A stretch of DNA of 64,000 nt. Origin: Sulfuracidifex tepidarius. GTDB taxonomy: Archaea > Thermoproteota > Thermoprotei_A > Sulfolobales > Sulfolobaceae. The first letter of the stretch is position 1. The number at the start of each line of letters is the position of its first letter. Under the pieces are notes generated by a model. It was not told where the DNA came from and did no database searches. It worked only from the letters and a program-made list of their open reading frames with translations. The DNA lies in contig NZ_AP018929.1 of the NCBI RefSeq assembly GCF_008326425.1, positions 1,936,875-2,000,874 of the forward strand. The letters run 5' to 3'. A program made the translations under genes and the position numbers. Below, one piece after another: positions 38,581 through 58,180 of this stretch.

Positions 38581-38926
38581 ATATGTTTTCACCCAAGAGT
38601 TTCCTCTAAAAAGTTATTGTGTAGGAATTAGATAATACACTCAATAATATTATACTACATTATATAACGATTAAACTGTTGTAGCGGTGTAATTAGTCCT
38701 TTTACTCTTAAATAATACTAGCGCCCGCGAAGCGTAATGTGTTATCAAACCTTGATTTCTTTTCCTTTCCAGCGAGGAGTCTTGTTCCTTTGTTGTCTAT
38801 AAAAAGTAGGGGTATTTAAACTAGTTACTAATACAGATAATACCTGGAAATCAGTACAGATAGTAAATTATTTCAATACTCATGAATTTATAAGTTGAAG
38901 GAGCTAGTTCTATTTGGTAACTGGGA
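38581..38926. other. Gene-free 346-base spacer
   Basis: AT-rich except for one GC-rich patch near 38728-38745 (GCGCCCGCGAAGCG). No frame longer than about 40 codons and no convincing RNA gene. The last 50 bases provide the promoter for the following GT2 gene. Confidence 0.4.
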
Positions 38927-39844: not shown

Positions 39845-39976
39845 AGGTATTTCTATTAAACGCCTTTCTTTTTGTCTATAAAAACATTTATAATATTGCA
39901 AAATAAAGAAAGCGACGAAAGATCTTTATAAGCACATCTGGATTAATTTTTTATTCAGAAATTGGAGGTGTTGAAT

Positions 39977-41728
39977 GTGTATATATTATTATTGATCGCT
40001 TTAGCTATATCAGGTATAACCTTACAAGAATTCTTGCTTAGAAAAGTAAATACTCCTTTAAAGTCGTTAATTCTGGTTCTGTACTCCGCTATTCTCTCTA
40101 TTGCAGGATTTTTAGTAATAATCTTTGAGACCCTCTTAAATGAGCCACTACTTGGGATATACTTGATTTCCTTCTCTTTGCCAGCATTTTTCATTGTTTA
40201 TCTAACAAATTATTTCAAATTCTTCAAGCAACCAGAGTTTCTAGGCCTTTTAGTTGTATTATTTACAGTTCTGTCTTTCGCTAGTTCAGTGTACGTACCA
40301 TCTACTTTACAGACTGTCACGGAAGATTCACCTCATTTATGCGATCCTTCTGCATATCCATTCTTTATCGATTTAAGTAATATATTACAGAATTCATCTT
40401 ATGATTCGTATAAAATAAACATTAACTTAGGTCAGGGAACAAGTGAAGCCTATCTCGTTTATGGAGAGTTCTTACTTTATCTTAACGAATCTAAAGAAGT
40501 CCAATTTTTAGCCAATCAGACAATCAGTTTATTGCATAATGGGGACCTTAAGACCGCAAATAGTTCATATTCACAAATGTTTCGCGAATATAATCTAATG
40601 ACATCTACATTGCAATCCTTAATTTACAATTCGAATCAATTGTTTGACAAACTAGGAGGTTCTTCGATCTCTACTTTCAGTTATGATTTAAATCAATTCA
40701 ACTCCAAGGTTACATCTAGGGTTTACTACGTCGAGAAAATAATGTCATTAATTCAAAATTATTCTTTTAAGTCGTACCATCCAGTGTCTGTACATCTTAG
40801 TCCAACTGTGCTAGAATTTAATAATACTGTAGAAATTAATGGGAATATCACCTCCTCTTACGGATCTCCCAATGGATCAGTAGTAATTTATGTTAACAAT
40901 ATCTCAATTCAGAGATCATTAAATAACGGAGAGTTTAGTTTCCCACTTAAGTTGACTCAGTACGTTAGAGCCCTTCCTATAACGGTAGAATACCTAGGTA
41001 ACAAAGGGTATCTTCCAAATATTAGTTCCTTCTATCTTCCTACTAATGTAGTCCTAACGAGTATGACATTTAATGTAACACCAAGGGGGAGCATCTACCC
41101 TGGTGAAACTATAACAATTCAAGGAAATGTAAGCGGAAATTTCAGGACCTTATCAGTATCATTCGATAATATAACTAGATACTTCATGGTAGGCCATAAT
41201 TATTCAATTCGTTTTGCATTACCCACTAACTTAACTAACGAAACATACTTCCTAAACGTTACCGCCTTGCCTGATGGAATGTATTCGCCTTACACTAAGA
41301 TAGTCTCCATTACGCCACACTTGTATAACATCAGCGTTACAGTTTCTTTGCCAAGCAAATGGATAGTCCCAAGTTCAATAACTTTAACGGGACACGTTTC
41401 ATATAGTTCCGCTCCGGTTGATACTAAAGTATACGTGTTTGTGGATTCGCAGAGGTATGAAGCAATAGTAAGGAATGGAGAATTTCATGTCACAATAAAA
41501 CCAAAGCTTACTCTAATATACGGGAAACAAGTGGTTATCGTGGATACAGTTCCATCTAATCTGTATTATAGACATATAGTTTCAGCTACGACTACCTTAT
41601 ACAACCCCTTCTGGTTCTTGGTAATCTTCATTATCTTACTCATATACATTGTCTTGAATAAGACGAGGAAGAAACAGGAAAAAGCTTATTTAATTGAAAA
41701 ATATGTGGGTGGCGAGGATGAACTTTAA
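39977..41728 (+). CDS. Large membrane protein with extracellular beta domains and C-terminal anchor
   Basis: About 583 residues. An SD sequence GGAGGTG (39964-39970) precedes GTG at 39977; TTG codons at 39962 and 39971 are poorer starts. About four N-terminal membrane helices are followed by an extracellular region of about 430 residues with a helical part, then three beta-sandwich-like repeats with dense N-x-S/T sequons. A last helix (FWFLVIFIILLIYIVLN) leads to a short basic cytoplasmic tail. The next ORF overlaps its end. No catalytic motif recognised; a surface scaffold or adhesin-like role is possible. Confidence 0.68.
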   Translation: MYILLLIALAISGITLQEFLLRKVNTPLKSLILVLYSAILSIAGFLVIIFETLLNEPLLGIYLISFSLPAFFIVYLTNYFKFFKQPEFLGLLVVLFTVLSFASSVYVPSTLQTVTEDSPHLCDPSAYPFFIDLSNILQNSSYDSYKININLGQGTSEAYLVYGEFLLYLNESKEVQFLANQTISLLHNGDLKTANSSYSQMFREYNLMTSTLQSLIYNSNQLFDKLGGSSISTFSYDLNQFNSKVTSRVYYVEKIMSLIQNYSFKSYHPVSVHLSPTVLEFNNTVEINGNITSSYGSPNGSVVIYVNNISIQRSLNNGEFSFPLKLTQYVRALPITVEYLGNKGYLPNISSFYLPTNVVLTSMTFNVTPRGSIYPGETITIQGNVSGNFRTLSVSFDNITRYFMVGHNYSIRFALPTNLTNETYFLNVTALPDGMYSPYTKIVSITPHLYNISVTVSLPSKWIVPSSITLTGHVSYSSAPVDTKVYVFVDSQRYEAIVRNGEFHVTIKPKLTLIYGKQVVIVDTVPSNLYYRHIVSATTTLYNPFWFLVIFIILLIYIVLNKTRKKQEKAYLIEKYVGGEDEL

Positions 41729-42356
41729 AGTAATTATTTTATCAATCTTGATAATTTTAAGTATTTTTACTCTTTTATTTGAGTTCCCAATAAATGGTTA
41801 TTTATCTCCAGGGAATAATGGGCCTTATGGTATGTCCAAGGTATTTTCTGAGCTGGGGAACTCATCTAAAACCACCATGATATACTTGGTGTTGACTCCA
41901 AGCTACAACGCGAGTTACCTATATAGCTATGTGGAAGATGGGAACACCCTTATACTAGCCGGAAACCTGACTTTCCTGAATGATCTATTGAGCAAGATGA
42001 ACGTTAGTATGTTATTAACTACAGGAATTTATGTAAATTACACATCATTTTACCAAATACCCGAGAACGTGGTAGCTTACTATCATGGGATCAGTATGGT
42101 GTTTCCAAGTCCTCACCCAATACTAGGGGGTATCCCCTTAGTCAAGTCGGGGCATTACGCGCTCATATCGCAGGAGAGGTTAGGTAAGGGCAAATTGATA
42201 GTGTTTTCTACCCCAGACTTCTTTATGAATAAATACGTTAATGCGGGATACCAGAATCTGGATTTTTTGAAGCAACAGATAGGTCGTTCTTCTATAGCAA
42301 TCAATTCCCCTCAACCATTGATAATATATATTAGAGCATATTTGGAAGGAATTTAA
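41718..42356 (+). CDS. DUF4350-like membrane-anchored protein
   Basis: About 212 residues, starting with ATG at 41718 (11 bases inside the previous gene). A single N-terminal signal-anchor (FKVIILSILIILSIFTLLFE) is followed by an extracellular alpha/beta domain: YGMSKVFSELGNSSKTTMIY, GNTLILAGN, GIPLVKSGHYA, GKGKLIVFSTPDFFMN. This order matches the DUF4350 (GATase-like) domain. Such proteins often accompany DUF4129/MoxR genes, which are absent here. Confidence 0.65.
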   Translation: MNFKVIILSILIILSIFTLLFEFPINGYLSPGNNGPYGMSKVFSELGNSSKTTMIYLVLTPSYNASYLYSYVEDGNTLILAGNLTFLNDLLSKMNVSMLLTTGIYVNYTSFYQIPENVVAYYHGISMVFPSPHPILGGIPLVKSGHYALISQERLGKGKLIVFSTPDFFMNKYVNAGYQNLDFLKQQIGRSSIAINSPQPLIIYIRAYLEGI

Positions 42357-42376
42357 AAGTTGGAACAAGCTTTTTA

Positions 42377-44164
42377 ATGAAGTCTTTCATGATTACTTAT
42401 ATGAAAACAAAGATAGTGTTTTTATCATTTATAGTATCATTTATTATATTAGTCATGGTATTGCTTTCCACGGTAAACGCGGTGTCCTATGAAGGTTATG
42501 GACTTCGGATTTACTCTCCCTACCCTTTCTATATAAATGGTAAACTAGTTTCACCGGGTACGTACTATGAAGGATTTGGTGAAGTAGTTAATCTAACCTT
42601 TCCTACATATTTTTACAAAGATTCTGTATCAAGGTGTTATTTAAATTCAATTGACCTTAATGAAAGCAATGCAGAAAGTAATACTCCTGGTGTGTTAGAG
42701 CTCTATAATTCCAGTAATTCAACTATAATTGTTCTTAATACATCAGATTTTTATGAGACCTATGTAACTCCTCGCTATTTACAGCAGTACTACGTGAACG
42801 TAACATATAATTTACAGTTACCAGAGGCCCCGATAAAGTCTGGCTGGTATGATAGCCAATTTTTATTCAATATTCATTTACCTTTGATAGAAAATATTAG
42901 CTCTAACTACAGATATTATACCTATGAAATTCTAGTTAACGGAGTACCAGAGAGTTATTTTCACGTTGGTTCACCACTTAACATAAAAATACTGTCATAT
43001 TATCAGGTATATGAAAAATTCATTAATAATATTACAGGGTATCTGAACGGGACTCTCGTAAAACTTTCTACAGGATGGTATAACTATGGAGATGATCTGA
43101 ATTTAACTTCTCCTCTGTATACTGGGGTTGGATCACGATTAATCATATGGGGAAACGAAGTCGGGAACTTCAAGTTAACATCTCCCATCACTTTCGATGA
43201 TAATGAGACGAACCAGTTTTACGTTAATTTCACCTCTCCAACTTTCATAAAATCTAATGGCCTAATCTATGAGACTACTGGTCAATGGTTTAACGAAAGC
43301 CAGAAATTTATGATTGAGAGCTCTTACCCAATAAACGCTACGTATAGATATTTCAGCGAAGGAAATTATCCTAGATATTGTGTGGGAGTTTATGGACCAA
43401 TGAATATTACTGATAAACAAGTAGTACAATATTTGCTTACGTTTCCGGTTCAGTTAGAAGTTCAGTTGTCTAATGGGACTGAAATGACGTTTTCCTCTCA
43501 ATGGATAAATGTAGGGACAACAGTTCACGTTTTACCACAGACAGCTTACGCCGATGAAGGTAAGGTGAGATACATAGTTCCTTCTCAAAACTTCTCTCGG
43601 CCCGAAGAGTTACAATATTTAAAGCAATATCTATTGAATGTACAACCATCAATAGTAGCTATGGTAAATGGGACTAACACCACCATCGGAGTAACATGGA
43701 TGAATGCAGGGACAAATGTGACTCTATACAAGGTTTATTACATCAATTCCACCACAAGGATGGTTTTGTTAAGCTCTAACACTATGAGTTTCATTGTGAA
43801 CTCTCCTATGAACATCTCCGCAGTTTATCAGCTTCAGGATCTAGTTCAAGTATACGGTAAATATTCCACAAGTATCATTTACTCCTTCAATAACTGGGAA
43901 CCATACGGTTCAACGGTTACGATACCTCCTCTCCTTAGCTATGATAAAACATTGTTCCAGTTAAATTCAACCGTTAATACCATCTTGGTGAACTCTCCTA
44001 AATTCCTAAATCTTTCCTATGATCCTTTCAACGTTACTAGTTCAAATGGTATAGTTAATAATCAATCTAATTCAAACTTCACCTTCATACTTGTTTCTGT
44101 CATTGGAATAGCTGCGATAGCAGTCCTAGTCTACACTGTACTAATAAGAAGAAATCCACAATAG
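42377..44164 (+). CDS. Secreted/anchored multi-repeat surface protein
   Basis: A 595-residue protein with an N-terminal signal helix (IVFLSFIVSFIILVMVLLST) and a C-terminal anchor (FILVSVIGIAAIAVLVYTVL). The ectodomain has at least five copies of a module of about 70-90 residues built on NGT-x(5-7)-W-x-N-x-G-T-x-V: LNGTLVKLSTGWYNYGDDLN, LSNGTEMTFSSQWINVGTTV and VNGTNTTIGVTWMNAGTNVT. The modules resemble beta domains seen next to thermopsins. Heavy N-glycosylation is predicted. Third gene of a likely operon with the two genes before it. Confidence 0.7.
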   Translation: MKSFMITYMKTKIVFLSFIVSFIILVMVLLSTVNAVSYEGYGLRIYSPYPFYINGKLVSPGTYYEGFGEVVNLTFPTYFYKDSVSRCYLNSIDLNESNAESNTPGVLELYNSSNSTIIVLNTSDFYETYVTPRYLQQYYVNVTYNLQLPEAPIKSGWYDSQFLFNIHLPLIENISSNYRYYTYEILVNGVPESYFHVGSPLNIKILSYYQVYEKFINNITGYLNGTLVKLSTGWYNYGDDLNLTSPLYTGVGSRLIIWGNEVGNFKLTSPITFDDNETNQFYVNFTSPTFIKSNGLIYETTGQWFNESQKFMIESSYPINATYRYFSEGNYPRYCVGVYGPMNITDKQVVQYLLTFPVQLEVQLSNGTEMTFSSQWINVGTTVHVLPQTAYADEGKVRYIVPSQNFSRPEELQYLKQYLLNVQPSIVAMVNGTNTTIGVTWMNAGTNVTLYKVYYINSTTRMVLLSSNTMSFIVNSPMNISAVYQLQDLVQVYGKYSTSIIYSFNNWEPYGSTVTIPPLLSYDKTLFQLNSTVNTILVNSPKFLNLSYDPFNVTSSNGIVNNQSNSNFTFILVSVIGIAAIAVLVYTVLIRRNPQ

Positions 44165-44238
44165 AATTAGCTCGTATTTTTTATTTTAAGTAAAGAATTA
44201 AGGTAAAACTTTTTATATAGATCATTTATCTTTCCTAC

Positions 44239-45285
44239 ATGAAAGCAATAATACTCCATGGAGGTCAGGGTACAAGGCTAAGACCACTCACCCACACTGG
44301 TCCGAAACAATTGATAAAGATTGGCGGGAAGCCTGTATCTCAATGGGGTCTAGAGGCGCTTTCAAAGGTAGGAATTAAGGAGTTCGGAATAGTTCTCGGA
44401 AATAATCACCCAGAAAAGGTAGTAGAATACTACGGTGACGGTTCAAAGTTTGGAGTATCAATTACTTACATCTATCAAGGAGAGGCTCTGGGTCTTGCGG
44501 ACGCAGTGAAAAAAACTGAAGATTTCGTAGGTGGAGATAACTTCATTGTTTACCTAGGAGACAACGTAATTCTAGAAGGACTAGAGGAGCTTTTAAAGTT
44601 TCAAGGCTCAGCATCTATTTTGCTCGCTCAAGTGGAGAACCCTCAACGTTTCGGAGTAGCTCAAATAAAAGATGGCAGGATAATCAGACTTGTAGAGAAA
44701 CCCAAAGAACCCATTTCAGATCTGGCCTTAGTAGGTGTATATGCGTTTACTCCAGACATATTTGACGCAATAAATAAAATAAAACCAAGTTGGAGGGGAG
44801 AGTTGGAAATTACAGACGCAATTCAGAAGCTTATAGATGAAGGTAAGAGTGTCTCTTACCATGTTATAAGAGGATGGTGGAAAGATACGGGTACACCTGA
44901 AGATCTATTGGACGCAAATCTCAAATTACTTGATAATTTCCTGGTAGAAGACAATAATGGATCTGTTGAAAATTCTAAAATACGCGGAAGAGTATATATC
45001 TCTCCGCAAGCAAAGGTGGTTAATTCCGACATTAGGGGCCCCGTTTACATAGGTAAAGGATCAGTAGTGGAGAACTCAATGATAGGTCCTTATACTTCTA
45101 TAGGTGATGAATGCAAAATTAGGGACTCTGAAGTAACAAATTCTCTGTTACTTGACAGATCAGAGGTGAGCGGGGTTCAATTAATAGATTCTATAATCGG
45201 GCAAAGCTCAAAAATATCGAAGAAAGTGTCCAGTTTCCACGGATCTCGATTCATTGTAGGCGAAAACACCGTATTGCAGTTATGA
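44239..45285 (+). CDS. Glucose-1-phosphate thymidylyltransferase-like (long RmlA type)
   Basis: A 348-residue enzyme. GGQGTRLRPLTHTGPKQLIK is the nucleotidyltransferase signature with the thymidylyltransferase-type H-T/S-x-P-K-Q. YLGDNVI is the metal-binding D, EKPKEP follows, and WWKDTGTPEDLL is typical of long RmlA. The C-terminal 100 residues form a left-handed beta-helix of hexapeptides (GPVYIGKGSVVENSMIGPYT). It would make dTDP- or UDP-activated glucose for the island. TTTTTATATAG lies about 25 bases before the ATG, giving a leaderless transcript. Confidence 0.88.
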   Translation: MKAIILHGGQGTRLRPLTHTGPKQLIKIGGKPVSQWGLEALSKVGIKEFGIVLGNNHPEKVVEYYGDGSKFGVSITYIYQGEALGLADAVKKTEDFVGGDNFIVYLGDNVILEGLEELLKFQGSASILLAQVENPQRFGVAQIKDGRIIRLVEKPKEPISDLALVGVYAFTPDIFDAINKIKPSWRGELEITDAIQKLIDEGKSVSYHVIRGWWKDTGTPEDLLDANLKLLDNFLVEDNNGSVENSKIRGRVYISPQAKVVNSDIRGPVYIGKGSVVENSMIGPYTSIGDECKIRDSEVTNSLLLDRSEVSGVQLIDSIIGQSSKISKKVSSFHGSRFIVGENTVLQL

Positions 45286-45676
45286 TGTATTTATCAATAT
45301 TCTCTAATTTTCTTTTATACTTCATCAGACCTTAAAAGTCAAGATTTTTATATTTCAGATCTTCATAGGCCTCGAGATTTTAATGCGTAGCGCAAAGAAG
45401 TCCATACGCTCCGTAGCATGGGAGGCAAATGATCTAATGTTTCGTGAGGAAGAGGGAAGCCTTAGACATCAATACTGGAGGAAGTTCTCTTGCTCTTTAA
45501 GATCTGACGAAGATATTTCTATATTGCTTATTTTGATTTGGTTACTATATCATACTTTTAAAGTCGTAAACTAATTTTTCTAAGTATATAGAGACTTAAA
45601 GTTATATATACTATTATCCCTCGTTAATGAATATGAAGATTTATAGACATGTAAGTGTTTGATAAATTGATATATA
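45286..45676. other. Gene-free 391-base spacer with promoter of the next GT4
   Basis: One 63-codon frame (45383-45574) has unconvincing composition and no Shine-Dalgarno or TATA signal; I do not accept it. A strong TATA-like AGTTATATATAC lies at about 45599-45612 and a second ATATATAATG sits at the start of the GT4 gene. Confidence 0.4.
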
Positions 45677-46792
45677 ATGGATTTGAAGTCTCTAGTTGTC
45701 CTACCGCCTCTCTTCTTTAATAGTGAAGCAAAAACTGCGGTAGCGTTCATTAAAGCTATCCGAGAGTACGGGATATCACAAATAGTTTCAGTTTCAACTA
45801 GAAATGACGATTATACGCAAGTTGATGAGATGGTAGAATTAGTTAAAGGCATAAAATCTTCCTCACTTCCAATAATAAGCGGACCATTAATCTCTGGACC
45901 AATAGATTACATCTTATTGAATGCCATGAAAATCATAGGTAGATTTGACTTCTCGTTAAATCTCTATTATGTTGATGTACCAGTAGGACTAGATGCATCC
46001 TACATTATTTATCCTCCCTCTGCTTTAATGTCTAGAGAGGAAATTATTAAAAGGAGATCGGGTTTAAAAAGAATTTATGCTAATATTGTTGAGAACTTAG
46101 TGCAGAAATCCGCCAACTCGAAGCATTTGTTATGTAGTTCCTCTTACATTAAGGACCTTATCAAGAGAGAGTATAATTACGAATGTTCAGTTATATATCC
46201 GCCAGTTGATGTGTTTTGGACTCCTAAGATTAATGAAGAAAAAGAGGAACTGGTAGTAGGAGTTGGAAAGTACGTCGAGCCAAAACACTGGGAGGAATTC
46301 ATTCAAATAGCTAAGCTTGTGAAAGAGAAAAATAAGGAGGTAAAATTCACGATAATAGGCGGGCTAGACAAGGTGAGATCGTCAAGAGAGTATTTCAATA
46401 AGCTTCGGGAATTAGCAGGGGATAACGTAGAGCTTATGACGGATGTCTCCGAGAAAGATAAATGGGACATAATAAGTCGTGCGAAGATAATTCTACATTG
46501 CATGAGGAACGATAATTTCGGTCTGGGAGTCGCGGAGTCAATGTTCACAGGAGCTGTTCCAGTTATGTATAGAGCAACCGGGTCTTTAATTGACATTTCA
46601 GATAACGGTAAATATGGAGTCCTTTACAGCACAGTTCAAGAAGCGGCGAATTCCATTTTAGATATAATGATGGACGACGAGAAGTTTATGTCCTATAGCA
46701 GGAAATCCTTGGAAAGAGCTAAGGAATTCTCTTACGACACATTTAAGGCAAAGGTGTTTACTCTTCTTGATGAAATAACAAGAGGGCGTTGA
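45677..46792 (+). CDS. GT4-family glycosyltransferase
   Basis: A 371-residue GT-B enzyme related to the ALG11/ALG2 type. LVVGVGKYVEPKHWEEFIQI opens the donor domain, and NDNFGLGVAESMFTGAVPVM is the donor motif with the second Glu retained and the first replaced by Asn/Asp. YPPSALMSREEI resembles the acceptor loop of ALG11-like mannosyltransferases. Cytoplasmic. No operon partner. Confidence 0.85.
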   Translation: MDLKSLVVLPPLFFNSEAKTAVAFIKAIREYGISQIVSVSTRNDDYTQVDEMVELVKGIKSSSLPIISGPLISGPIDYILLNAMKIIGRFDFSLNLYYVDVPVGLDASYIIYPPSALMSREEIIKRRSGLKRIYANIVENLVQKSANSKHLLCSSSYIKDLIKREYNYECSVIYPPVDVFWTPKINEEKEELVVGVGKYVEPKHWEEFIQIAKLVKEKNKEVKFTIIGGLDKVRSSREYFNKLRELAGDNVELMTDVSEKDKWDIISRAKIILHCMRNDNFGLGVAESMFTGAVPVMYRATGSLIDISDNGKYGVLYSTVQEAANSILDIMMDDEKFMSYSRKSLERAKEFSYDTFKAKVFTLLDEITRGR

Positions 46793-46934
46793 AGAAGTAT
46801 ATCATTATTTTTATTTAAATATATTTTCCTTCTCTTTGATGGTTCATCCAAAAATTAATATCAAGTTTAAATAAATTCTTATAAGGGAAAAATCTTTTAT
46901 AATTTGTGTACACACTTTATCTAGTTGTATTAAA

Positions 46935-47858
46935 TTGATGATGAGTATTGTCATTATAAACTATGGAGATACCACTTACTTTAGAAAGTTAATTGATTCT
47001 CTGGACAATAAGGAAATGGAAATTGAGATTCTTGTAGGAACATTTGATAAAATAAATAAAGATGCAGAAGGGAAAATAAAATGGATATACCTAGATAAAA
47101 ATTACGGTCCTCCAGGTAATAGGAATAGAGTGGCGAGATATGCCAAGGGAGACTTCATAGTTTTCCTAGATAACGATGTTGTTCTAAGTCCTGATTTTTC
47201 CGTTAATATATCAAAATACCTAGATCACAGTTCCATACTGCAGTTAGTGCTTATGAGGGAAGACGGAAGGATAGATAGCGCAGGAGGTTTAATAGATAAG
47301 TTAGGATACCCTCATGAAATAGGCAGAGACCAAAGATTTACTTCTCAAGAAGTAAAAGAAATACTCTATGCAAAGGGAGCAGGAATGATAGTACCAAGAG
47401 ACGTATTCTTAAAACTTAATGGATTTGATGAAGACTATTTTTACGGTTATGCGGATACTGATCTAAGTCTCAGGGCATGGAAAACCGGATACAGAGTAGT
47501 TTCAATTCCAGTAACTGCAATTCATTATGAGCATGGCTCTTTTAGTTCGGACGAAGTTGAGAGAAAGCTCAGGCTTGCCTTCCTCTTGGAGAGCCGGAGG
47601 CTTTATTTCGTGACGAAGAACTTCGAATGGAGTTTTCTGCTCTCGGTTTTCCCAAAAATGGCTTTCTTCTTTCTAGGTTCAATGATTAAAGATATAGTAA
47701 TCAGAAAGGACTTCAGTTTATTTGTAACCAGGTTCAAGGCGGGAACATGGTTTCTCGGTAAATTGACCGAAATTTCTAGGAAGAGACTGAAATACAGAGG
47801 GAAGTATAGACTGGGAGAGAAGGAATTGGTGAAGAAAGGTCTTATAATAGACCATTAG
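46935..47858 (+). CDS. GT2-family glycosyltransferase (paralogue of 37618-38580)
   Basis: A 307-residue enzyme. SIVIINYGDTTYFRKLIDSL, KNYGPPGNRNRVARYAKGDF, FLDNDVVL (DxD) and YADTDLSLRAWK (acceptor motif) are present. It shares IDSAGGLIDKLGYPHEIGRD and YEHGSFSSD with the gene at 37618 and may transfer a related sugar. The C-terminal basic region has one possible membrane-associating helix. Monocistronic. Confidence 0.86.
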   Translation: MMMSIVIINYGDTTYFRKLIDSLDNKEMEIEILVGTFDKINKDAEGKIKWIYLDKNYGPPGNRNRVARYAKGDFIVFLDNDVVLSPDFSVNISKYLDHSSILQLVLMREDGRIDSAGGLIDKLGYPHEIGRDQRFTSQEVKEILYAKGAGMIVPRDVFLKLNGFDEDYFYGYADTDLSLRAWKTGYRVVSIPVTAIHYEHGSFSSDEVERKLRLAFLLESRRLYFVTKNFEWSFLLSVFPKMAFFFLGSMIKDIVIRKDFSLFVTRFKAGTWFLGKLTEISRKRLKYRGKYRLGEKELVKKGLIIDH

Positions 47859-48075
47859 TTATCTTTATTTCTTTATTCATGAGAGGCTAGATCGTACTGG
47901 TTAACTCAGGGTAAGTCCCTTGTTCTTGTTGTCAATAGCATTATTTGTCTTTTCTCTTTGTTTATGAAAACTATTTATATGATGTATAATCAAATTGTTA
48001 AGTAAAACAAATAAAAGAATTTATTAGCTATTCTATACCTGCATATAAAAATACAGAACAAGAAAATTCCTATCT

Positions 48076-49107
48076 CTAGACTTCAATAAAAGGCATTTCG
48101 TTCTCATTAGGTACAACTATCTTGTAATTTCCCTTGATGAGTCTCTGTCTTACAGCAGCTGAGAACATGTCCATGAAGAAAGTCTTATAACAAGACTCTG
48201 CATGAGGGATTCTGTAAATGTCTAGACGAATGTTTAATTCTTTATTATATTTCATTGCCATTCTGAATGCCTTCAGATAGTTACTAGGAGATGCTAACTT
48301 TTTCCCCATGGCCTTTCTTATACCTTCTTTTAAATAATTGGCTATAAAGTATTCTTTAATATATTTTCTAAATTTAGAATTAGTTATCATTATAAATAAA
48401 AATCTACTTATTTTTATATGTAAATCGCTAACTTCATCTTCAGTAGTAGCTTTTCCTTTGTGATAACCAGTTTCGTATGGAAAGTACTTTACTTTGTATC
48501 CATGATGATATAGTTCCATTCCGAGTACACTAGAATCGAAATAAAGAAACGGAACTTCGTAGAATATGAATCCTCTAGATCTGGAAAATTCGCCTCTCAG
48601 CATCATCATGGCTCCTGAGACGTAAGTGACTAAACTCTCCTTGTTTGGATCCATGTTCGCTGTATGTAATCTGATTACGTTTCCATCATCCGCGATGAAT
48701 CTACCCGTGTCAATCTTTCCTTTTCCCGTTATAAATTTCCCTTGAATTGCACCTAGCTTTGGATCGCTCTCCATCAATTCGGTCAAAATATTTGCGGAAT
48801 CTGGATTAGGGACTGCATCTGGATTGACCAGGTATAGATATTTGGACTCCTTCGATGCGGCTTTGAAGGCTATGTTATTTCCTCCTCCAAAGAAAGTATT
48901 AATGTCAGATCTCAATAATTTGAATCGTGAATCTGTTACTTTCTCCTTCAAAAACTTGTATGTAGAATCTGTTGAGCCATTATCTAGAGCTATCACTTCG
49001 TAATTCGGATAATCTAAACTTCTTAGAGCTTTCAGATGTTCCTCTACAATTTGTTGTTCTTTCATTGAATTGAAATGAACTACTAAGATCGATATTTTTG
49101 GCTTCAC
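48076..49107 (-). CDS. GT2-family glycosyltransferase
   Basis: A 343-residue enzyme, starting with GTG at 49107. ISILVVHFNSMKEQQIVEEH, ALDNGSTDSTY and YLVNPDAVPNPDS (N-P-D in place of DxD, as in rhamnosyltransferases). YFDSSVLGMELYHHGYKV stands at the acceptor motif. The rhamnosyl/galactofuranosyl-type sequence may use a deoxysugar donor such as that made by the RmlA-like enzyme. A TATA-like GGGTTTTTATAG lies about 25 bases upstream, beside an ACAGTAGA element resembling the palindrome near 49565. Confidence 0.84.
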   Translation of the reverse strand: MKPKISILVVHFNSMKEQQIVEEHLKALRSLDYPNYEVIALDNGSTDSTYKFLKEKVTDSRFKLLRSDINTFFGGGNNIAFKAASKESKYLYLVNPDAVPNPDSANILTELMESDPKLGAIQGKFITGKGKIDTGRFIADDGNVIRLHTANMDPNKESLVTYVSGAMMMLRGEFSRSRGFIFYEVPFLYFDSSVLGMELYHHGYKVKYFPYETGYHKGKATTEDEVSDLHIKISRFLFIMITNSKFRKYIKEYFIANYLKEGIRKAMGKKLASPSNYLKAFRMAMKYNKELNIRLDIYRIPHAESCYKTFFMDMFSAAVRQRLIKGNYKIVVPNENEMPFIEV

Positions 49108-49215
49108 GGGTATTACAGTAGATTACTACTATAAAAACCCTTTTATATTAAAAAGATAAGAACAAAAATTAGCTTTTATCTACTTAAAAAAAGATAAAGT
49201 GTTAAATTAAATAAA

Positions 49216-49563
49216 TCATTCTCGTTGACGAATAAAATCGTATTCAGGAAGAGGTTTTCTCGCTTTTTGACCTTTGTTTAGGACCTCGTCTATAACGCTT
49301 TTTATTTTCTCGGCTTCTTGAATATGCCTTTCGTATTCTTCTATCTTCTTGAGGATCATCTTGCCCTTATCCGTTGTTTGGAATGCCTTGTTTCCTGTTT
49401 CTATAATTAGATCGCTCTTTATGAGATCAGATAGATAACCGGTAATCGTTTTATGATTCAGATTAGCAGCGTACATCAAAGAGGTCTTCTGAGTTTCTTT
49501 TATAGAGGCGCTCAAAATAGATTTAATTATAGCTATCTTATTTCTTCTAGCCCTCCTTTTCAT
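49216..49563 (-). CDS. Winged-helix transcriptional regulator (HTH_45-like)
   Basis: A 115-residue basic protein. The wing-HTH core is SLMYAANLNHKTITGYLSDL, LIKSDLIIETG and AFQTTDKGKMIL, the outline of the archaeal HTH_45 family, followed by a coiled-coil dimerisation helix (KKIEEYERHIQEAEKI). A near-perfect palindrome covers the 20 bases before its ATG, so it probably represses itself. Located in the glycan island, it is the best local candidate regulator of surface-glycan genes. Confidence 0.78.
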   Translation of the reverse strand: MKRRARRNKIAIIKSILSASIKETQKTSLMYAANLNHKTITGYLSDLIKSDLIIETGNKAFQTTDKGKMILKKIEEYERHIQEAEKIKSVIDEVLNKGQKARKPLPEYDFIRQRE

Positions 49564-49584
49564 AGTTTTCTATAGTAGAAAACT
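49564..49584. promoter_or_regulatory. Palindromic operator in the wHTH gene promoter
   Basis: GTTTTCTATAGTAGAAAAC (49565-49583) has 8-bp arms around TAG, extended to 9 bp by the flanking A-T pair. It lies between the start codon (49563) and the TATA element CTTTTTATAC (about 49587-49597 on the minus strand). In a leaderless promoter this is where a bound repressor blocks polymerase. A half-site GTTTTCTA follows at about 49597. Confidence 0.65.
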
Positions 49585-49710
49585 TGTATAAAAAGGTTTT
49601 CTATGAACATTAGAGTTATTGAAACTAAAAAATAGACCAAACGGTAGTGTAAAAAAGATTAAAGCTAAATCATACGGGACTTTTTCTAACAAAACAGTAT
49701 ATCTGGCCTT

Positions 49711-49735
49711 AGTTTTCTGTACAGTAGAAACTTGT
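49711..49735. promoter_or_regulatory. Second copy of the palindrome-like element
   Basis: AGTTTTCTGTACAGTAGAAA and the following CTTGT repeat the order of the 49564 element (AGTTTTCT...AGTAGAAA...CTTGT) about 147 bases away. No gene starts nearby. The spacing suggests looping or an upstream auxiliary operator. Confidence 0.45.
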
Positions 49736-50265
49736 CGTTAATAAGTTTCAAATACTATCTAAGATCTTTCTATAGAGAGTAAAAGTATATAGATTAATTC
49801 TTTTAATAGACATACTCTTTTTAACAGTATTGATGTTTAATATCAATGTGTAGAATATCAATTTAGCGAAGAACTTTTTTTCCTAAAAAAAATTAAGAGG
49901 AATAAGTACCTCCTGTATAAAATTAGAGAGACAATGGACTTAAATATTAGAAGTAAAATGGCAGCACCCTCTATATAAGCTCAACTGAAGTTGGGTAAAT
50001 ATAGTCTTTAAATAGAACGTTATATTTTAAAATAAATTGACTAAAAATTAGTAGAATTTCTCTAAAATTCTAAGAGTTATGTCTAAAATAACTTTTTAGC
50101 TATAAGATTTCGCTTGTTAAACAAAAATAGTGATGGCAGTGAGTAGGAATCCGGACCAAAGCGGAACATGACATTATCAAAACTGATTATTTTTTGAAAA
50201 GATATAAAATATAGTTTTTATAAATCAAAAGAAAATACTTAAGAAAGACTTAATTATATAAGAAT
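49736..50265. other. AT-rich gene-free spacer
   Basis: No frame of useful length. A short GC-richer patch near 50130-50170 (GGAATCCGGACCAAAGCGG) stands out from the AT-rich surroundings but matches no RNA I know. The stretch lies between divergent regulator and convergent GT4 genes. Confidence 0.35.
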
Positions 50266-51261
50266 TTATGGTAAGAATTTCAGGTTTTCTATAATCTTTG
50301 ATGCAGCTGAATCTGGAGAGTGATTTGTGTTTACAAATTTAATGTTTTCATGAAAATCTAGATCTATCTTGTTTTCTAAGATATCCAGTATACGGGTTGC
50401 GAACTCTTCTTCACTTTCTGCATTTACGTAATTTATCTTCTCTATGCCTTCTACAGCTATTTTACTGGCAATGATAGGTTTCCCTGAGGCCATATATTCT
50501 AGTGTCTTTAATTTAACTCCTCCTCCCCTCTTTAACGGAGCTATACAGATGTCTGCTGCTTTTATGTATGGTGCGGTTGACTCTACATACCCAGTAGCGT
50601 GGACGGGAGGTTCTACAGATGGAGGAGATGGTCCTACAAGATAGAAATTGGCATCCTTTCCCTTAGCCCTTATAATTTTTGATATCTTAATTACTGATAG
50701 CGCAGCTTCCTTATTTGGGGGATAACTCATTCCCCCAACGAAGACTACCGCCGGTTTCTTTAACTCAACCGGCTTAGCGTTGCTAAACGCTTCTACATCT
50801 ATAACGTTAGGGAGTATCTTTGCTTTCTTCAGTATAGTTCTCTCAGTTTCGGACGGAACGAATGTGACGTCGCAAATCTCCCCTATTCTCTCTAGAATTG
50901 AGACTATTCTCTTTCCAAAGCTGGACAGCCCCGTGTCCTGCCTTGATTCCACAGAATGGAGATGAATAAAGCAAGGAACCCTTAACATCCTAGAGGAGAC
51001 AAGGGAAGGGATTACGGGCCACGCTGTCTCTGAGATTATTACGTCGTATTTTCCGTCGACTATCCTTTTTATAAAGGTGGGAGATATTTCTCTAAGCCAG
51101 AGAAGTCTCTTTCCCTTTTCGTCTGCCTTTCTCTTGGAATAAGGAACTATATCAACGTCAATTCCCTTTTTTCTTAGCTCCCTTGAAATCAGGTACACTT
51201 GTTCATGAATTCCGCCCCTCTGAGGATATATGCTCTCCATCATGACGAAAGCTATTTTCAT
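50266..51261 (-). CDS. GT4-family glycosyltransferase
   Basis: A 331-residue GT-B enzyme with GGIHEQVYLISRELRKKGID (N-terminal), PAVVFVGGMSYPPNKEAALS (donor domain) and APLKRGGGVKLKTLEYMASG, the G-x-G-x-K-x-K-x-L-E-Y motif of the PEP-CTERM/ALG-type GT4 (first Glu replaced). PIIASKIAVEGI follows. Divergent from the GT2 gene at 51367, with TATA boxes in the 105-base gap. Confidence 0.86.
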   Translation of the reverse strand: MKIAFVMMESIYPQRGGIHEQVYLISRELRKKGIDVDIVPYSKRKADEKGKRLLWLREISPTFIKRIVDGKYDVIISETAWPVIPSLVSSRMLRVPCFIHLHSVESRQDTGLSSFGKRIVSILERIGEICDVTFVPSETERTILKKAKILPNVIDVEAFSNAKPVELKKPAVVFVGGMSYPPNKEAALSVIKISKIIRAKGKDANFYLVGPSPPSVEPPVHATGYVESTAPYIKAADICIAPLKRGGGVKLKTLEYMASGKPIIASKIAVEGIEKINYVNAESEEEFATRILDILENKIDLDFHENIKFVNTNHSPDSAASKIIENLKFLP

Positions 51262-51366
51262 ATATGAAATTAGTTCTTCCTATTTTTAAAATTTCTTCTA
51301 TATTGAAGTACCTTTAAATGGAAATAATTAAATACTTGGAAGTTCCTATTATAGCTGTGTAATAAC

Positions 51367-52386
51367 TTGGACGTTACAATAGGGATTCCTACATTCAAAA
51401 ATGACGGAAGGACTATTCTATACACTTTGCAGTCTTTGACCAAACAAACTTACGCGGATTTCAAGGTTTTAATTGCGTATAAACCGAGCGAAAACGATAG
51501 AACTCTGGACGTTATAGAAAAATTTACTAAGTCATTAGATCTGAAAATAATGTTTCAGAGAGAAGGTTACTTTGACGAAGCCTTGAACATGATTTATTCT
51601 ACATCCAAAAGTGATATCCTTATATCAACAGACGATGATGCAGTCCCTTCAACTAATTGGGTCGAGTCCCATATAAGGGCCCATGAGAACTTCTACGACG
51701 CGGGCGTCATAGGTCCTTTTTTAGGGATCTCGCATAGATCATCCTTGATAGCAAGGCTTTATTCAAATATATTTGAAGATCCATTAGAGGAAGATATGAG
51801 GTTATCCAATAATTATTTCGCAAAGACCGGGATCCTAGTTAGGAATAATCTATTTAGAAATGCAGGGTCAAAGGTTAGAACATTTAATCCAATTGGGGTC
51901 AATATGAGCATTAAGAAAGAAGTGTATTCGGATTTCAAGCTTCCTAATATGACCCTGCGGGGTATAAACAATGAACTGTATTTATGTCTTCATGCATATG
52001 AAAAAGGATATCCTTGTACATTGGTAAACGAAAAAATTGAGGTAGAACATTTCGATCGTGATTCAATGAGCCGTCCCAAAAATTTGTCAGGAATAATTGA
52101 ACGTTTCGCAGAATTTTCCTTGTCAGTGTATTATCTTTCTAAGTTGGGATATGATCTTGACTTCAAGAAACTTAAGCTAGATATCTTTTTGAAATCTATT
52201 CCTTGGAAGTTTAAAAAAGATGAGAAATTAAAAGCGCAGCTCGTAGGCATAAAGAAAGGAATAGATATATCTTTAGAGGCATTAAAACTTAAGAAAGATG
52301 AAAAATGGATAAGACAAAAATTAATGGAAATTCGCGGAGAGCAACAGAACTCATCTAATGTTTTGAGGGATTATCAAAATGTCTAA
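51367..52386 (+). CDS. GT2-family glycosyltransferase
   Basis: A 339-residue enzyme, starting with TTG at 51367. VTIGIPTFKNDGRTILYTLQ, YKPSENDRTLDVIEKF and ISTDDDAVPS (D-D-D metal motif) are present, then FNPIGVNMSIKKEVY in the acceptor region. The C-terminal 80 residues are helical and highly charged. Its end overlaps the start of the first LamG-like gene by 8 bases, linking the glycosyltransferase and the secreted proteins in one transcript. Confidence 0.85.
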   Translation: MDVTIGIPTFKNDGRTILYTLQSLTKQTYADFKVLIAYKPSENDRTLDVIEKFTKSLDLKIMFQREGYFDEALNMIYSTSKSDILISTDDDAVPSTNWVESHIRAHENFYDAGVIGPFLGISHRSSLIARLYSNIFEDPLEEDMRLSNNYFAKTGILVRNNLFRNAGSKVRTFNPIGVNMSIKKEVYSDFKLPNMTLRGINNELYLCLHAYEKGYPCTLVNEKIEVEHFDRDSMSRPKNLSGIIERFAEFSLSVYYLSKLGYDLDFKKLKLDIFLKSIPWKFKKDEKLKAQLVGIKKGIDISLEALKLKKDEKWIRQKLMEIRGEQQNSSNVLRDYQNV

Positions 52387-53506
52387 GATATCTAGAAGGC
52401 AATTTGTAGGACTACTAGCAGTAGGATCTATCGGGATCACTGCAGTAGTCCTGGAAGGCAGTAGGAAAGGTAATAACTACAACTCAGGTTCACCTACATC
52501 TTCAAAGACCTCATTAGCGGGAACTACATTCACTCCTTTAGTAATTTTAGTTGGTTCTTCTCAACAGTGCAAGGCTATAGGTTCAAACGGAGAAGTCATC
52601 TTCTCAGGCACCTGCTCTGATGGAAGTGGAACTTGCGGTATTTATGAGGCAATGCAGTACGTCAACCAGAACTTCGGCGCTGGAAAGGTTGACCTCATAG
52701 GCGAGTTCTATCCTACCAGTTCACCTTCCCCGATCCCCAACGTTGAACTTGACGGAAACGCAGTGATTTACTTGTCCCCTGCTAACTTGCAGTTCATTAT
52801 GTCCTCAACTAGGGGTAACGGAATAAAGCTTCTATGGTATCAGAACTACGGTTTCGTCAACACCTTGCTCTCTCGCTCGCCTTCCTTTTCGCTTTCTCCT
52901 TACTTTTTCTTCCCTACCACAGCCTCATCGGTTTTCTTCGCTAACGGTGACCTTACCTTAGGCACTCCTTCATCATTCACAGTAGGAGCTTGGGTGAACG
53001 GAAATCAGAACAACAACGGAGGATATATCCTCACCTATGGATCCATGAGTGGAATATCCTGGGCCATACAGTACGGATATGGAGCGATTCTCTTTAACAC
53101 AGATCAGACGTTAAAATATTATTATGACGAAGCTCCTTTCCATGTTGCAGTCACTTACGACAACGGAGACGTCACTCTGTACGTCAACGGCAAACCCGTG
53201 TCAACATCCACCTCTTCCATCTCATACGTAACTCCCTCTTATCTGTGGTTGAACAACTTCCCTAAGGTAAATCAGCAATCAGGTCTCTCTCCTTCCTCTC
53301 CGTTTTCGTCTATAGAGAACGTTCAGTTCTACCCTAAGGTTCTCTCTCAATCTCAGATCGAGGCAATTGCATCACCTACTGCTTCGCCAGTAGACCCATC
53401 CATATCTTTCTGGGCCCTCTATCGCTACATCTTTTATCTCGGAGATCTGATCACAGGGAAGGGATTTCAGAGGATGGGAGGCGTCCTAGAAGGAGGTGTG
53501 TTCTAG
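52379..53506 (+). CDS. Tat-exported LamG-like (concanavalin-fold) protein, copy 1
   Basis: A 375-residue protein. SRRQFVGLLAVGSIGITAVV (5-24) is a twin-arginine signal, and a Ser/Thr/Gly linker follows to about residue 58. Residues 60-130 (CSDGSGTCGIYEAMQYV, GKVDLIGEFYP) resemble the start of pectate-lyase-type repeats. A LamG jelly roll is read from SSFTVGAWVNG through FHVAVTYDNGDVTLYVNGKP to IENVQFYPKVLSQSQIEAIA. A hydrophobic C-terminus (ISFWALYRYIFYLGDLITG) ends the protein. From 52554 on, the DNA is apparently identical to copy 2. A carbohydrate-binding or surface role is inferred. Confidence 0.75.
   Translation: MSKISRRQFVGLLAVGSIGITAVVLEGSRKGNNYNSGSPTSSKTSLAGTTFTPLVILVGSSQQCKAIGSNGEVIFSGTCSDGSGTCGIYEAMQYVNQNFGAGKVDLIGEFYPTSSPSPIPNVELDGNAVIYLSPANLQFIMSSTRGNGIKLLWYQNYGFVNTLLSRSPSFSLSPYFFFPTTASSVFFANGDLTLGTPSSFTVGAWVNGNQNNNGGYILTYGSMSGISWAIQYGYGAILFNTDQTLKYYYDEAPFHVAVTYDNGDVTLYVNGKPVSTSTSSISYVTPSYLWLNNFPKVNQQSGLSPSSPFSSIENVQFYPKVLSQSQIEAIASPTASPVDPSISFWALYRYIFYLGDLITGKGFQRMGGVLEGGVF
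52554..53505 (+). repeat. 952-bp direct repeat, copy 1
   Basis: Positions 52554-53505 correspond to 54020-54971 (offset 1466) without a difference that I could find by eye, and the encoded proteins are identical over about 316 residues. Sequences outside, including the 58-residue and 48-residue N-termini and the bases after the stop, differ. The repeat ends inside the stop codon (TAG versus TAA). Confidence 0.9.
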
Positions 53507-53874
53507 GCTTAAAATATTTCTAATTTATTAGATTCTTTTCTAAATTATTTTTGGTTCCTTCCAATTTATATAACGTTTCTTTAGCTTCGATTACATAATT
53601 AATAAAGTAGTTTCTTGACCTCATATAGTTGATCTCTTTTTAATCTAACTCCTTTTGACTAGTCCTAAATATAAGGAAATTTTCTGATTAATAACTTTAT
53701 AGATTATCTGAGAATTCATCAAGTAGAGAAAGAAAAAGTTTTTACTATAATATTTTTATAAATAGCTTTTTATTACTATATAAAGATAAGAGCTCAGTTA
53801 CGAACGAAATTTATTTAAAAATAATATCAATTTTATAGAAAACTTAATATAGATTAGTTAGGAACTGAATATCT
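53507..53874 (+). promoter_or_regulatory. Gene-free AT-rich spacer with promoter of LamG copy 2
   Basis: 368 bases, strongly AT-rich, no gene. A TATA-like AACTTAATATAG (about 53840-53852) lies about 25-30 bases before the ATG at 53875. T runs just after 53507 may end the first transcript. Confidence 0.45.
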
Positions 53875-54972
53875 ATGAGCAAAATTTCAAGAAGAGAGTT
53901 CATAGGACTGTTAGGCGTAGGAGCTGTAGCTTTAGGTTCGTCTAAATTAGCTCTCTCTTCAAGCCCCTCCAGTGAAATACCATCTTCCTTTTTTGGTTCG
54001 TCATTGGCAGTAGTCTTTAGTTCTTCTCAACAGTGCAAGGCTATAGGTTCAAACGGAGAAGTCATCTTCTCAGGCACCTGCTCTGATGGAAGTGGAACTT
54101 GCGGTATTTATGAGGCAATGCAGTACGTCAACCAGAACTTCGGCGCTGGAAAGGTTGACCTCATAGGCGAGTTCTATCCTACCAGTTCACCTTCCCCGAT
54201 CCCCAACGTTGAACTTGACGGAAACGCAGTGATTTACTTGTCCCCTGCTAACTTGCAGTTCATTATGTCCTCAACTAGGGGTAACGGAATAAAGCTTCTA
54301 TGGTATCAGAACTACGGTTTCGTCAACACCTTGCTCTCTCGCTCGCCTTCCTTTTCGCTTTCTCCTTACTTTTTCTTCCCTACCACAGCCTCATCGGTTT
54401 TCTTCGCTAACGGTGACCTTACCTTAGGCACTCCTTCATCATTCACAGTAGGAGCTTGGGTGAACGGAAATCAGAACAACAACGGAGGATATATCCTCAC
54501 CTATGGATCCATGAGTGGAATATCCTGGGCCATACAGTACGGATATGGAGCGATTCTCTTTAACACAGATCAGACGTTAAAATATTATTATGACGAAGCT
54601 CCTTTCCATGTTGCAGTCACTTACGACAACGGAGACGTCACTCTGTACGTCAACGGCAAACCCGTGTCAACATCCACCTCTTCCATCTCATACGTAACTC
54701 CCTCTTATCTGTGGTTGAACAACTTCCCTAAGGTAAATCAGCAATCAGGTCTCTCTCCTTCCTCTCCGTTTTCGTCTATAGAGAACGTTCAGTTCTACCC
54801 TAAGGTTCTCTCTCAATCTCAGATCGAGGCAATTGCATCACCTACTGCTTCGCCAGTAGACCCATCCATATCTTTCTGGGCCCTCTATCGCTACATCTTT
54901 TATCTCGGAGATCTGATCACAGGGAAGGGATTTCAGAGGATGGGAGGCGTCCTAGAAGGAGGTGTGTTCTAA
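53875..54972 (+). CDS. Tat-exported LamG-like (concanavalin-fold) protein, copy 2
   Basis: A 365-residue protein. SRREFIGLLGVGAVALGSSK (5-24) is a twin-arginine signal, diverged from copy 1 at synonymous and replacement sites. From residue 50 the protein is identical to copy 1: a Cys-containing N-terminal domain, the LamG jelly roll, and the hydrophobic C-terminal segment ending GKGFQRMGGVLEGGVF. The stop TAA is followed at once by ATG of the beta-helix gene in the same frame. That codon could once have been sense, or is read through, giving an 850-residue Tat-LamG-beta-helix protein. Confidence 0.75.
   Translation: MSKISRREFIGLLGVGAVALGSSKLALSSSPSSEIPSSFFGSSLAVVFSSSQQCKAIGSNGEVIFSGTCSDGSGTCGIYEAMQYVNQNFGAGKVDLIGEFYPTSSPSPIPNVELDGNAVIYLSPANLQFIMSSTRGNGIKLLWYQNYGFVNTLLSRSPSFSLSPYFFFPTTASSVFFANGDLTLGTPSSFTVGAWVNGNQNNNGGYILTYGSMSGISWAIQYGYGAILFNTDQTLKYYYDEAPFHVAVTYDNGDVTLYVNGKPVSTSTSSISYVTPSYLWLNNFPKVNQQSGLSPSSPFSSIENVQFYPKVLSQSQIEAIASPTASPVDPSISFWALYRYIFYLGDLITGKGFQRMGGVLEGGVF
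54020..54971 (+). repeat. 952-bp direct repeat, copy 2
   Basis: Partner of 52554-53505. The repeated part looks clearly more GC-rich than the flanking N-terminal coding sequence and the AT-rich spacer, consistent with spread of an imported cassette by recombination. Confidence 0.9.
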
Positions 54973-56427
54973 ATGATAGTAGTCTCTGACCACATGGATC
55001 CAGACGTAGACTTCTATGTTCCACCAGGATCAGACGCTACTGATGTTTTAAACGAAGCTCTCCAGCTCGGGAACATCTATGGTGTGGCTCACATTATGAT
55101 TAGAGGTAGATTGTATCTTTATGCAAACGGAAACACTCTCTTTAGCTTAGAACAGAGCAAGCACTACCTTTTTGAAGGGGATGGCTTAGGAGAGCTGTAC
55201 TACGTTAACCCTAATAACGCACAGAACCCCGGTCCGGTTTTTGCCGTGGCGTCGATAGCGACTTCACAAATGCAGGAAATAGGGGATACAGCTCCAGTCG
55301 TAGGTAAACAGTTCGCGGCGTATTCCACAAATGGGTGGATGGTAGCTTTCAAAAACTTGAGGTTATTGAATCAAACATCTCAGCGTTGGTTTATAATCAC
55401 AGGCTTTTCGGGCATGCATTCCCTCATGATGTATTTCGACGGAGTAGAATTCTTCTCAGGCATATGGATAAATGAAACCACTGAAGTAGTTGTGTATAAC
55501 TGTTATGCTAATGGAGCCGAACTTCTCTTTGACTCTCAGTCTAGAGAATTAACGGTTTTTGGTTCTAGATTCGAACATAATGCTGTGCTTGCAATGTCAG
55601 CTAGAGGATGGTCTGTAGTAGGCTGTGTTTTCGTAGGAAAAGGTTCTTATCTCAATCCAGGTAACGATGGAAACGATGGATCAGTGGTAGCTTGTGTATT
55701 TGATGGAGCAACACTAATTACGCAAGGAGCAACAAACCTGAAGATAGTTGCATCCCAATTTCAGAATGTGACTTTCAGCGGATATCAAGGCACTGTTCAA
55801 CTGACTTTAGGATGGAATTATGTAATAGTTGGCTGTTCTTTCGTTCAGTTCCCACTTTCAATAACTAACGTATATAACGGGCATACGATAGTCATAGCCA
55901 TGAACAACTTCGATTATGGCTCTTATGCAGAAATAGGAGTTTGTGACAGCGGTTACGTGGACTCAATAGTGATTATGGGTAACATTTTCTCCTCTCAGCC
56001 TTATAATTCCTCTCTGATCTTCTTCACAGGGAGCCCTCAATATAGATCGACAAGCAATGCAATTTACTTTACTGGAACCATAAACATGCTACAAATAGCC
56101 TTTAACACCTTCATAAACGCGGCTAACCGGTCTGGAGCAACTTTAGGAATTAAGGCAGCTGAGAACGAAAACCTTCACGGACAAGGGTATATCAACTTGG
56201 GCATCTCCGTAAAATACGCATATATCTCCTTTAACTACTTCAAGAACAATCAGGGCCTTCACGATAATGGCACGGGAAAGCCCCTGGGAGTGTTTTACAT
56301 GCAACAGTTAGGGTCTTCCATGCCCACAGTGAGTTATCTCATGTTTTACTTTAACGTAAACGAGGACAACCCCTTGTACATACCATCCTCACAGAGCTAT
56401 ATATCACAATTCAACATAGGTATGTGA
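54973..56427 (+). CDS. Right-handed parallel beta-helix protein (pectate-lyase-like), no signal peptide
   Basis: A 484-residue protein. An N-terminal cap (DFYVPPGSDATDVLNEALQL, AHIMIRGRLYLY) is followed by about ten beta-helix coils with regular aliphatic/aromatic and Asn positions: VVYNCYANGAELLF, VFGSRFEHNAVL, VVGCVFVGKGSYL, IVASQFQNVTF, IVGCSFVQFPL, IAMNNFDYG, IMGNIFSS. The fold is that of polysaccharide lyases/hydrolases and phage tailspikes. Catalytic residues cannot be assigned. It has no signal of its own and begins directly after the stop of LamG copy 2 in the same frame, so it may be exported with it. Confidence 0.72.
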   Translation: MIVVSDHMDPDVDFYVPPGSDATDVLNEALQLGNIYGVAHIMIRGRLYLYANGNTLFSLEQSKHYLFEGDGLGELYYVNPNNAQNPGPVFAVASIATSQMQEIGDTAPVVGKQFAAYSTNGWMVAFKNLRLLNQTSQRWFIITGFSGMHSLMMYFDGVEFFSGIWINETTEVVVYNCYANGAELLFDSQSRELTVFGSRFEHNAVLAMSARGWSVVGCVFVGKGSYLNPGNDGNDGSVVACVFDGATLITQGATNLKIVASQFQNVTFSGYQGTVQLTLGWNYVIVGCSFVQFPLSITNVYNGHTIVIAMNNFDYGSYAEIGVCDSGYVDSIVIMGNIFSSQPYNSSLIFFTGSPQYRSTSNAIYFTGTINMLQIAFNTFINAANRSGATLGIKAAENENLHGQGYINLGISVKYAYISFNYFKNNQGLHDNGTGKPLGVFYMQQLGSSMPTVSYLMFYFNVNEDNPLYIPSSQSYISQFNIGM

Positions 56428-56530: not shown

Positions 56531-56971
56531 ATGAAAGCGATCATAAAATACGATAACGGGGAAACAGAGGAAGTAGAGCTAGAAAAGAAAGAGGTCATAC
56601 CAAGCGACCAAGGGAATGTAGCCCACTTTAAGTATGTTAAGCTGGATAAATCAAAGAGCATCGTTATCCACGTATATCTGCCAACCACAGAGGAACCTAA
56701 CGTTAGGGCTATAGACATAGGAAAGGAAGTGGTAGAAAGGAAGACTTCAATTTCAAGATACAACAACATTGCAGACGATCTAATCACGAGAGCTAAGTTT
56801 ATGAGTCCTTCCGTCGATAAATGTGTTTTTTGTGGAGACTTAGCCTCCAACACCTTTAAAGGTAAGAAAGTTTGTTCCTCTTGTTTTGCGGAGCTAAATA
56901 AACATGGAGAGGCGTCTGAGGAGTTCTCTAAGTACTTAAGAAACAAGACGATCCACAAGTGGAACTCTTAA
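56531..56971 (+). CDS. Zinc-ribbon protein of unknown function
   Basis: A 146-residue protein. An N-terminal beta-rich domain (AIIKYDNGETEEVELEKKEV, IVIHVYLP) and a helical middle lead to CVFCGDLASNTFKGKKVCSSC, a C-x2-C-x13-C-x2-C zinc ribbon near 100-120. A TATA box CTTATTTAAATAGG lies at about 56496-56509, with CAGGAG just before the ATG. Stand-alone transcript; no family recognised. Confidence 0.68.
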   Translation: MKAIIKYDNGETEEVELEKKEVIPSDQGNVAHFKYVKLDKSKSIVIHVYLPTTEEPNVRAIDIGKEVVERKTSISRYNNIADDLITRAKFMSPSVDKCVFCGDLASNTFKGKKVCSSCFAELNKHGEASEEFSKYLRNKTIHKWNS

Positions 56972-57658: not shown

Positions 57659-58180
57659 ATGAAGTTAGTGGCTTCTCTTGGGACTTCCCCCGGAGGGATC
57701 CTCGAGACGTTCGAATACCTAAGGGGGAGAGGGATTGAGGTCAACGATATAGTGATAGTGAAAACCAAGGACAGTGCAGTCAGTAAAGCGTATGACTACC
57801 TACTCTCCATGTTTTCGTGCTGCGTGAAGTTGAGGTACAACGACGTGATGATGGGAGCTATCGACTTACCTTTCAGCGATATAACTACTTCAGACGACTT
57901 GAACGAGCTAATGAAAATTGTATCACCAGCGATTAACCAAGGGGACTACGTTGATATCACGGGAGGAAGAAAGGCTATAAGTATGGTCATGGGGCTGATA
58001 GCCATGAAGAGGAAGGCCCACGTGGTCACTACCATAGTGTCTCAGTCTAAGTACAACGAAGTTCAGGAAAAGCTGAGGAAGGGTCATCAACCTGTGACCC
58101 AAAACTGCTCACCTTCTGACAAGGAATTCTTCTGTAGCCTCTTGTCTAGTGACGCTGTGACTATAGAGATAAACTTGTAG
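57659..58180 (+). CDS. CARF-domain protein, ring-nuclease-like (Crn1-like)
   Basis: A 173-residue single-domain CARF (Rossmann-like) protein. LGTSPGG (7-13) has the Ser (S10) that contacts cyclic oligoadenylate in ring nucleases. DITGGRKAIS (99-108) is the D-x-TGGRKxxS motif of CARF proteins, and VIVKTKD forms the second strand. A basic segment (EKLRKGHQ, 137-144) may supply the catalytic lysine, and an additional 25 residues end the fold. Size fits stand-alone Crn1 ring nucleases of Sulfolobales, which degrade cA4 made by type III CRISPR complexes. No array or cas gene lies in the window. TATA ACTTATAAATC about 25 bases upstream gives a leaderless transcript. Confidence 0.75.
   Translation: MKLVASLGTSPGGILETFEYLRGRGIEVNDIVIVKTKDSAVSKAYDYLLSMFSCCVKLRYNDVMMGAIDLPFSDITTSDDLNELMKIVSPAINQGDYVDITGGRKAISMVMGLIAMKRKAHVVTTIVSQSKYNEVQEKLRKGHQPVTQNCSPSDKEFFCSLLSSDAVTIEINL

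Follow-up and report, generated by a model that had tools for sequence, protein, structure and literature searches.

A homogenised body shared by two adjacent Tat-exported LamG genes of Sulfuracidifex tepidarius, consistent with ectopic recombination between old paralogues

Genes at the locus

The window analysed here is a 64,000-nucleotide stretch of the Sulfuracidifex tepidarius genome (GCF_008326425.1, contig NZ_AP018929.1), which is assembled as one 2.56-Mb contig and is 99.9% complete. The genes of the locus all lie on the plus strand, and upstream of them comes an island that encodes glycosyltransferases, a polysaccharide transporter, and a nucleotidyl transferase. A family-2 glycosyltransferase gene (GT2; 51367..52386; Pfam Glycos_transf_2, 1.2e-14) overlaps by 8 nt the start of gene A (52379..53506), which encodes 375 amino acids comprising a Tat signal, an N-terminal domain, a LamG/ConA-like domain (Laminin_G_3, 3.2e-11), and a conserved C-terminal segment. 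An AT-rich intergenic region with TATA-like boxes (53507..53874) follows, which from its sequence is probably the promoter of a second operon. This operon opens with gene B (53875..54972), a paralogue of A encoding 365 amino acids (Laminin_G_3, 3.3e-11), whose stop codon abuts the ATG of a gene for a β-helix protein (54973..56427). GT2 and the β-helix gene serve below as markers of the A and B contexts, respectively. A small protein gene (56531..56971), with a possible zinc-ribbon-like C-terminus suggested by weak, sub-threshold Pfam matches, comes next and is kept after the β-helix gene in six other genomes (G025, G013, G014, G018, G004, and G011). Further downstream, positions 57659-58180 encode a Crn1-type CRISPR ring nuclease (NF040581, 203 bits).

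The LamG assignment lies above the curated cut-off of the family (PF13385, 44 bits against 27.6). The product of gene B passes the TIGR01409 Tat profile (17.7 against a cut-off of 16.7), and that of gene A is not listed by this profile; an R-R-x-F motif is invariant across the LamG family. An AlphaFold2 model of the LamG protein has modest confidence (pLDDT 58) and was used only for the fold class; its best matches among solved structures include pentraxins and PAPP-A. The proteins thus resemble Laminin_G_3, ConA-like lectins, and the pentraxin fold in both domain match and structure, but differ from these in an N-terminal domain and a conserved C-terminal segment of their own, and in having been found in Sulfolobaceae alone. 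The β-helix protein (484 amino acids, pLDDT 75) has the HK620 tailspike as its best PDB match, with further matches to tailspikes and carbohydrate-active β-helices. Its conservation is strong, with a mean column identity of 71%, and it has no apparent signal peptide, its most hydrophobic stretches being internal and none N-terminal. This protein lacks a described family (window 54973-56427; homologous loci L019, L021, L023, L024, L025, and L026) and is restricted to LamG-bearing Sulfolobaceae, apart from a broken remnant in genome G019; genome G020 has two copies. Searches of one literature library found no earlier description of the LamG family or of such a conversion in Sulfolobales.

An exact repeat behind diverged signals

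Genes A and B are direct repeats 0.5 kb apart, and exact comparison of 52554..53505 with 54020..54971 gave 952 identical positions out of 952, an identity that is as good as the assembly. In both genes the repeat sets in a few residues after the conserved domain has begun and takes in the first two bases of the stop codon, which reads TA|G in A and TA|A in B. In front of it, the 5′ parts of A (52379..52553) and B (53875..54019), each consisting of signal and linker, align over 47 residues, of which only 21 are identical; where the residue is the same (Met and Trp excluded), 16 of 20 codons differ, against none of 307 in the body (Fisher p about 9e-24). What follows the stop codons is unrelated, namely the AT-rich intergenic region behind A and the β-helix gene behind B. 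The sequence-only reading had described two bodies identical at synonymous sites, Tat signals diverged at many silent positions, and unrelated downstream sequences, and on alignment all of this proved accurate.

DNA- and protein-level searches of the complete genome found two copies of the body, both intact, and no third copy or silent or partial donor. The intergenic region together with the B signal (53507-54019, 513 bp) is unique within the genome and the genus, where only short, chance-level matches occurred, and the A and B signals are each other's only relatives within the genome. Borrowing of the B signal from another Tat gene was rejected because no relative exists in the genome besides the A signal, and a viral or plasmid origin was rejected because phages, plasmids, and viral contigs gave no match.

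The body had also been described as richer in GC than its surroundings, which holds relative to the signals and the glycosylation island, but not to the rest of the window, where its composition is ordinary. Third-position GC (GC3) is 0.50-0.51 in the body, 0.30-0.32 in the signals, mostly 0.31-0.39 in the GC-poor island (window 33000-52400), and about 0.42-0.63 elsewhere in the window. It is therefore the island and the signals that are AT-rich, the body having the composition of the wider genome section, in which GC3 is about 0.5-0.6. GC-biased conversion was considered and rejected, as the body exceeds its counterpart in the sister species by 0.13 in GC3, within the 0.00 to 0.25 by which other orthologue pairs do so.

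Distribution and gene contexts in relatives

The relatives were represented by one genome per species. The LamG family is present in 8 of 31 Sulfolobaceae genomes, and among 398 genomes in the phylum, those outside Sulfolobaceae yielded nothing beyond weak, partial matches to the LamG portion, so that by sequence the Tat-exported LamG proteins appear specific to Sulfolobaceae. Gene B stands directly upstream of the β-helix gene in S. tepidarius, Sulfolobales archaeon HS-7 (G004), G013, G014, G018, and G020, and in Metallosphaera yellowstonensis MK1 (G011) a C-terminal piece of B precedes it; the junction is conserved across five genera. Gene A adjoins GT2 in S. tepidarius, G018, and M. yellowstonensis, and G013 and G014 each have a gene that its sequence places with A, in a region that contains a GT4 glycosyltransferase but lacks that GT2. 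Relatives of GT2 at E<1e-60 are confined to LamG-carrying genomes (6 of 6; Fisher p 4e-5, with genomes counted as if unrelated).

Diverged, homogenised, and fused pairs

In G013, G014, and G018, which belong to one other genus (g7), A and B are diverged over their full length (57-58% nucleotide identity, longest shared run 13-14 nt), are oppositely oriented at a distance of about 37-43 kb, and have bodies that form separate A and B clades in the tree. The S. tepidarius bodies group apart from both clades, with that of the sister species in the same genus (G025). Since other genera also have the A and B contexts, and the pair is diverged in g7, the duplication predates the identity seen in the tract.

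A second homogenised pair is found in M. yellowstonensis, where A and the N-terminal piece of B are diverged over codons 4-134 and identical in every base over codons 135-200, while the C-terminal piece of B, next to the β-helix gene, shows 99.3% identity to A across about 275 bp. The B gene is split there by assembly gaps, and its two pieces might belong to different genes. Such gaps are as expected at an exact repeat. An insertion sequence, too, may have played a part: the gap in the N-terminal piece is immediately followed by a transposase-like gene (L027:1443-2164 and L025:9460-9793). The breakpoint between diverged and identical sequence differs from that of S. tepidarius and the bodies of the two species are just 52% alike, so homogenisation appears to have taken place independently in the two.

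In the sister species a single gene overlaps GT2 exactly like A, including the 8-nt overlap, and abuts the β-helix gene exactly like B. Of the 15 sites in its first 48 nt at which A and B differ, 9 match A and 3 match B, and its 3′ junction (TAA|ATG) is that of B. This gene therefore looks like the product of a crossover between A and B, with an A-like 5′ end, judged from those 15 sites, and a B-like 3′ end. The surrounding region (G025:C1:1874000-1890000) has many frame breaks relative to the window orthologues, among them glycosyltransferases and an MFS transporter, and its β-helix gene has an in-frame TAA; either sequencing errors or real decay could account for these breaks.

Origin of the repeat

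The pair is best explained, with high probability, by recurrent ectopic homologous recombination between neighbouring old paralogues, through gene conversion or unequal crossing-over. The starting point would be an old duplication of a Tat-exported LamG gene, with A beside a glycosyltransferase and B in an operon with the β-helix gene. Since A and B are adjacent in S. tepidarius, homologous recombination could act between their bodies, and the sequence of one body, beginning close to where the mature domain starts and continuing as far as the stop codon, would recently have been overwritten by that of the other, either by non-reciprocal transfer or by expansion through unequal crossing-over and subsequent contraction, while the signals, promoters, and flanks remained separate. 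In the sister species, a crossover between the A and B bodies would have deleted the interval and left a single fusion. This history is indicated by a tract of identity bounded by diverged but homologous flank; the route and direction of transfer are more conjectural, as the body tree is compatible with transfer from A to B or from B to A, and conversion and unequal crossing-over with contraction have the same outcome here, either of which fits. The view that old paralogous N-termini carry freshly homogenised bodies is borne out by the recurrence of both contexts in other genera and by the exclusive relationship of the two signals. Of the conversion or cassette exchange that the sequence-only reading went on to propose, the conversion half gained from the second genus with its different breakpoint and from the crossover-like gene of the sister species, and exchange as a source of variation did not.

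Gene conversion has been documented in Sulfolobus (PMC4471258). In S. acidocaldarius, of the same archaeal order, experimental conversion is non-reciprocal homologous recombination, but its tracts are described in the account given there, which cites Mao and Grogan 2012, as short-patch and discontinuous. Set against that description, a continuous tract of 952 bp would favour crossing-over or repeated events. Ectopic gene conversion and concerted evolution of tandem paralogues in general resemble this locus in that identity is almost complete but confined to a sharply bounded tract, the flanks are old, and recurrent cases and deletion products occur; the locus differs from the usual case in that the pair encodes secreted archaeal proteins in different gene contexts and the tract is unbroken across nearly all of the mature domain, ending at the stop codon.

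Alternatively, one ancestral gene like that of the sister species might recently have been duplicated in tandem, with one of the copies then acquiring, or quickly evolving, a new promoter and signal. This would suit the one gene found between GT2 and the β-helix gene in that species, and signal peptides do evolve fast. It is nevertheless unlikely: the codon contrast between 5′ parts and bodies is beyond what the speed of protein change explains, silent sites in the first 16 codons differ at 8 of 12 between A and B and at 2 of 9 between A and the sister-species gene (small numbers), and A and B exist as separate genes in other genera. An assembly artefact, whether a false duplication or a merging of similar bodies into one consensus placed twice, is less probable still. 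The exact identity does rest on the assembly, exact repeats are classic trouble spots, and the M. yellowstonensis assembly is broken at this point; against this, both copies have unique and different signals and flanks that stay in frame, the genome is complete in one contig, and both contexts recur in relatives. Consensus merging might hide some differences, but could not create the overall pattern.

Least probable is a cassette-exchange system that varies a surface receptor in the manner of antigenic variation, as the sequence-only reading had suggested. Constant flanks around an exchangeable secreted domain and the setting in a surface-glycan island would suit such a system, and the vls, pilE/pilS, and msp2 donor cassettes (PMC4534519) likewise exchange the body of a surface protein between fixed flanks. 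However, many known antigenic-variation systems use libraries of silent donors (PMC4534519), whereas here the only two copies are intact genes in conserved neighbourhoods, and recombination between them yields uniformity, removing the variation that such a system would need.

Possible function and significance

Based on fold and neighbourhood, A and B may be surface glycan-binding partners of the products of the surrounding glycosylation island: Tat-exported, lectin-like proteins in two transcription contexts, whose putative ligand may be S-layer glycans or exopolysaccharide of the cell itself. For the Ups pili of Sulfolobales, a species-specific recognition that involves S-layer N-glycans has been proposed (PMC7064770). 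Tat exports folded proteins (PMC2910488); as the genes of B and the β-helix protein abut and the latter has no apparent signal, the two are perhaps exported together as a folded complex.

It is a doubtful but conceivable extension that repeated conversion is the means by which selection holds A and B to one and the same mature LamG body, a single surface lectin being needed from two regulons, one with the glycosyltransferase and the other with the β-helix partner. If so, archaeal surface self-recognition would rest on the concerted evolution of two lectins together with their glycan enzymes.

The event is real, but of an already known kind, with the same process at work in relatives. Its value lies in a clean record, left in nature, of protein-coding paralogues recombining ectopically within Sulfolobaceae, with diverged, homogenised, and fused states preserved in related genomes and a continuous tract that contrasts with the discontinuous short patches of laboratory conversion as described in the account cited above. 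The locus also brings to light a co-occurring set for which no family description turned up (Tat-LamG protein, β-helix protein, small protein, and GT2) that is tied to the surface-glycan islands of these archaea.
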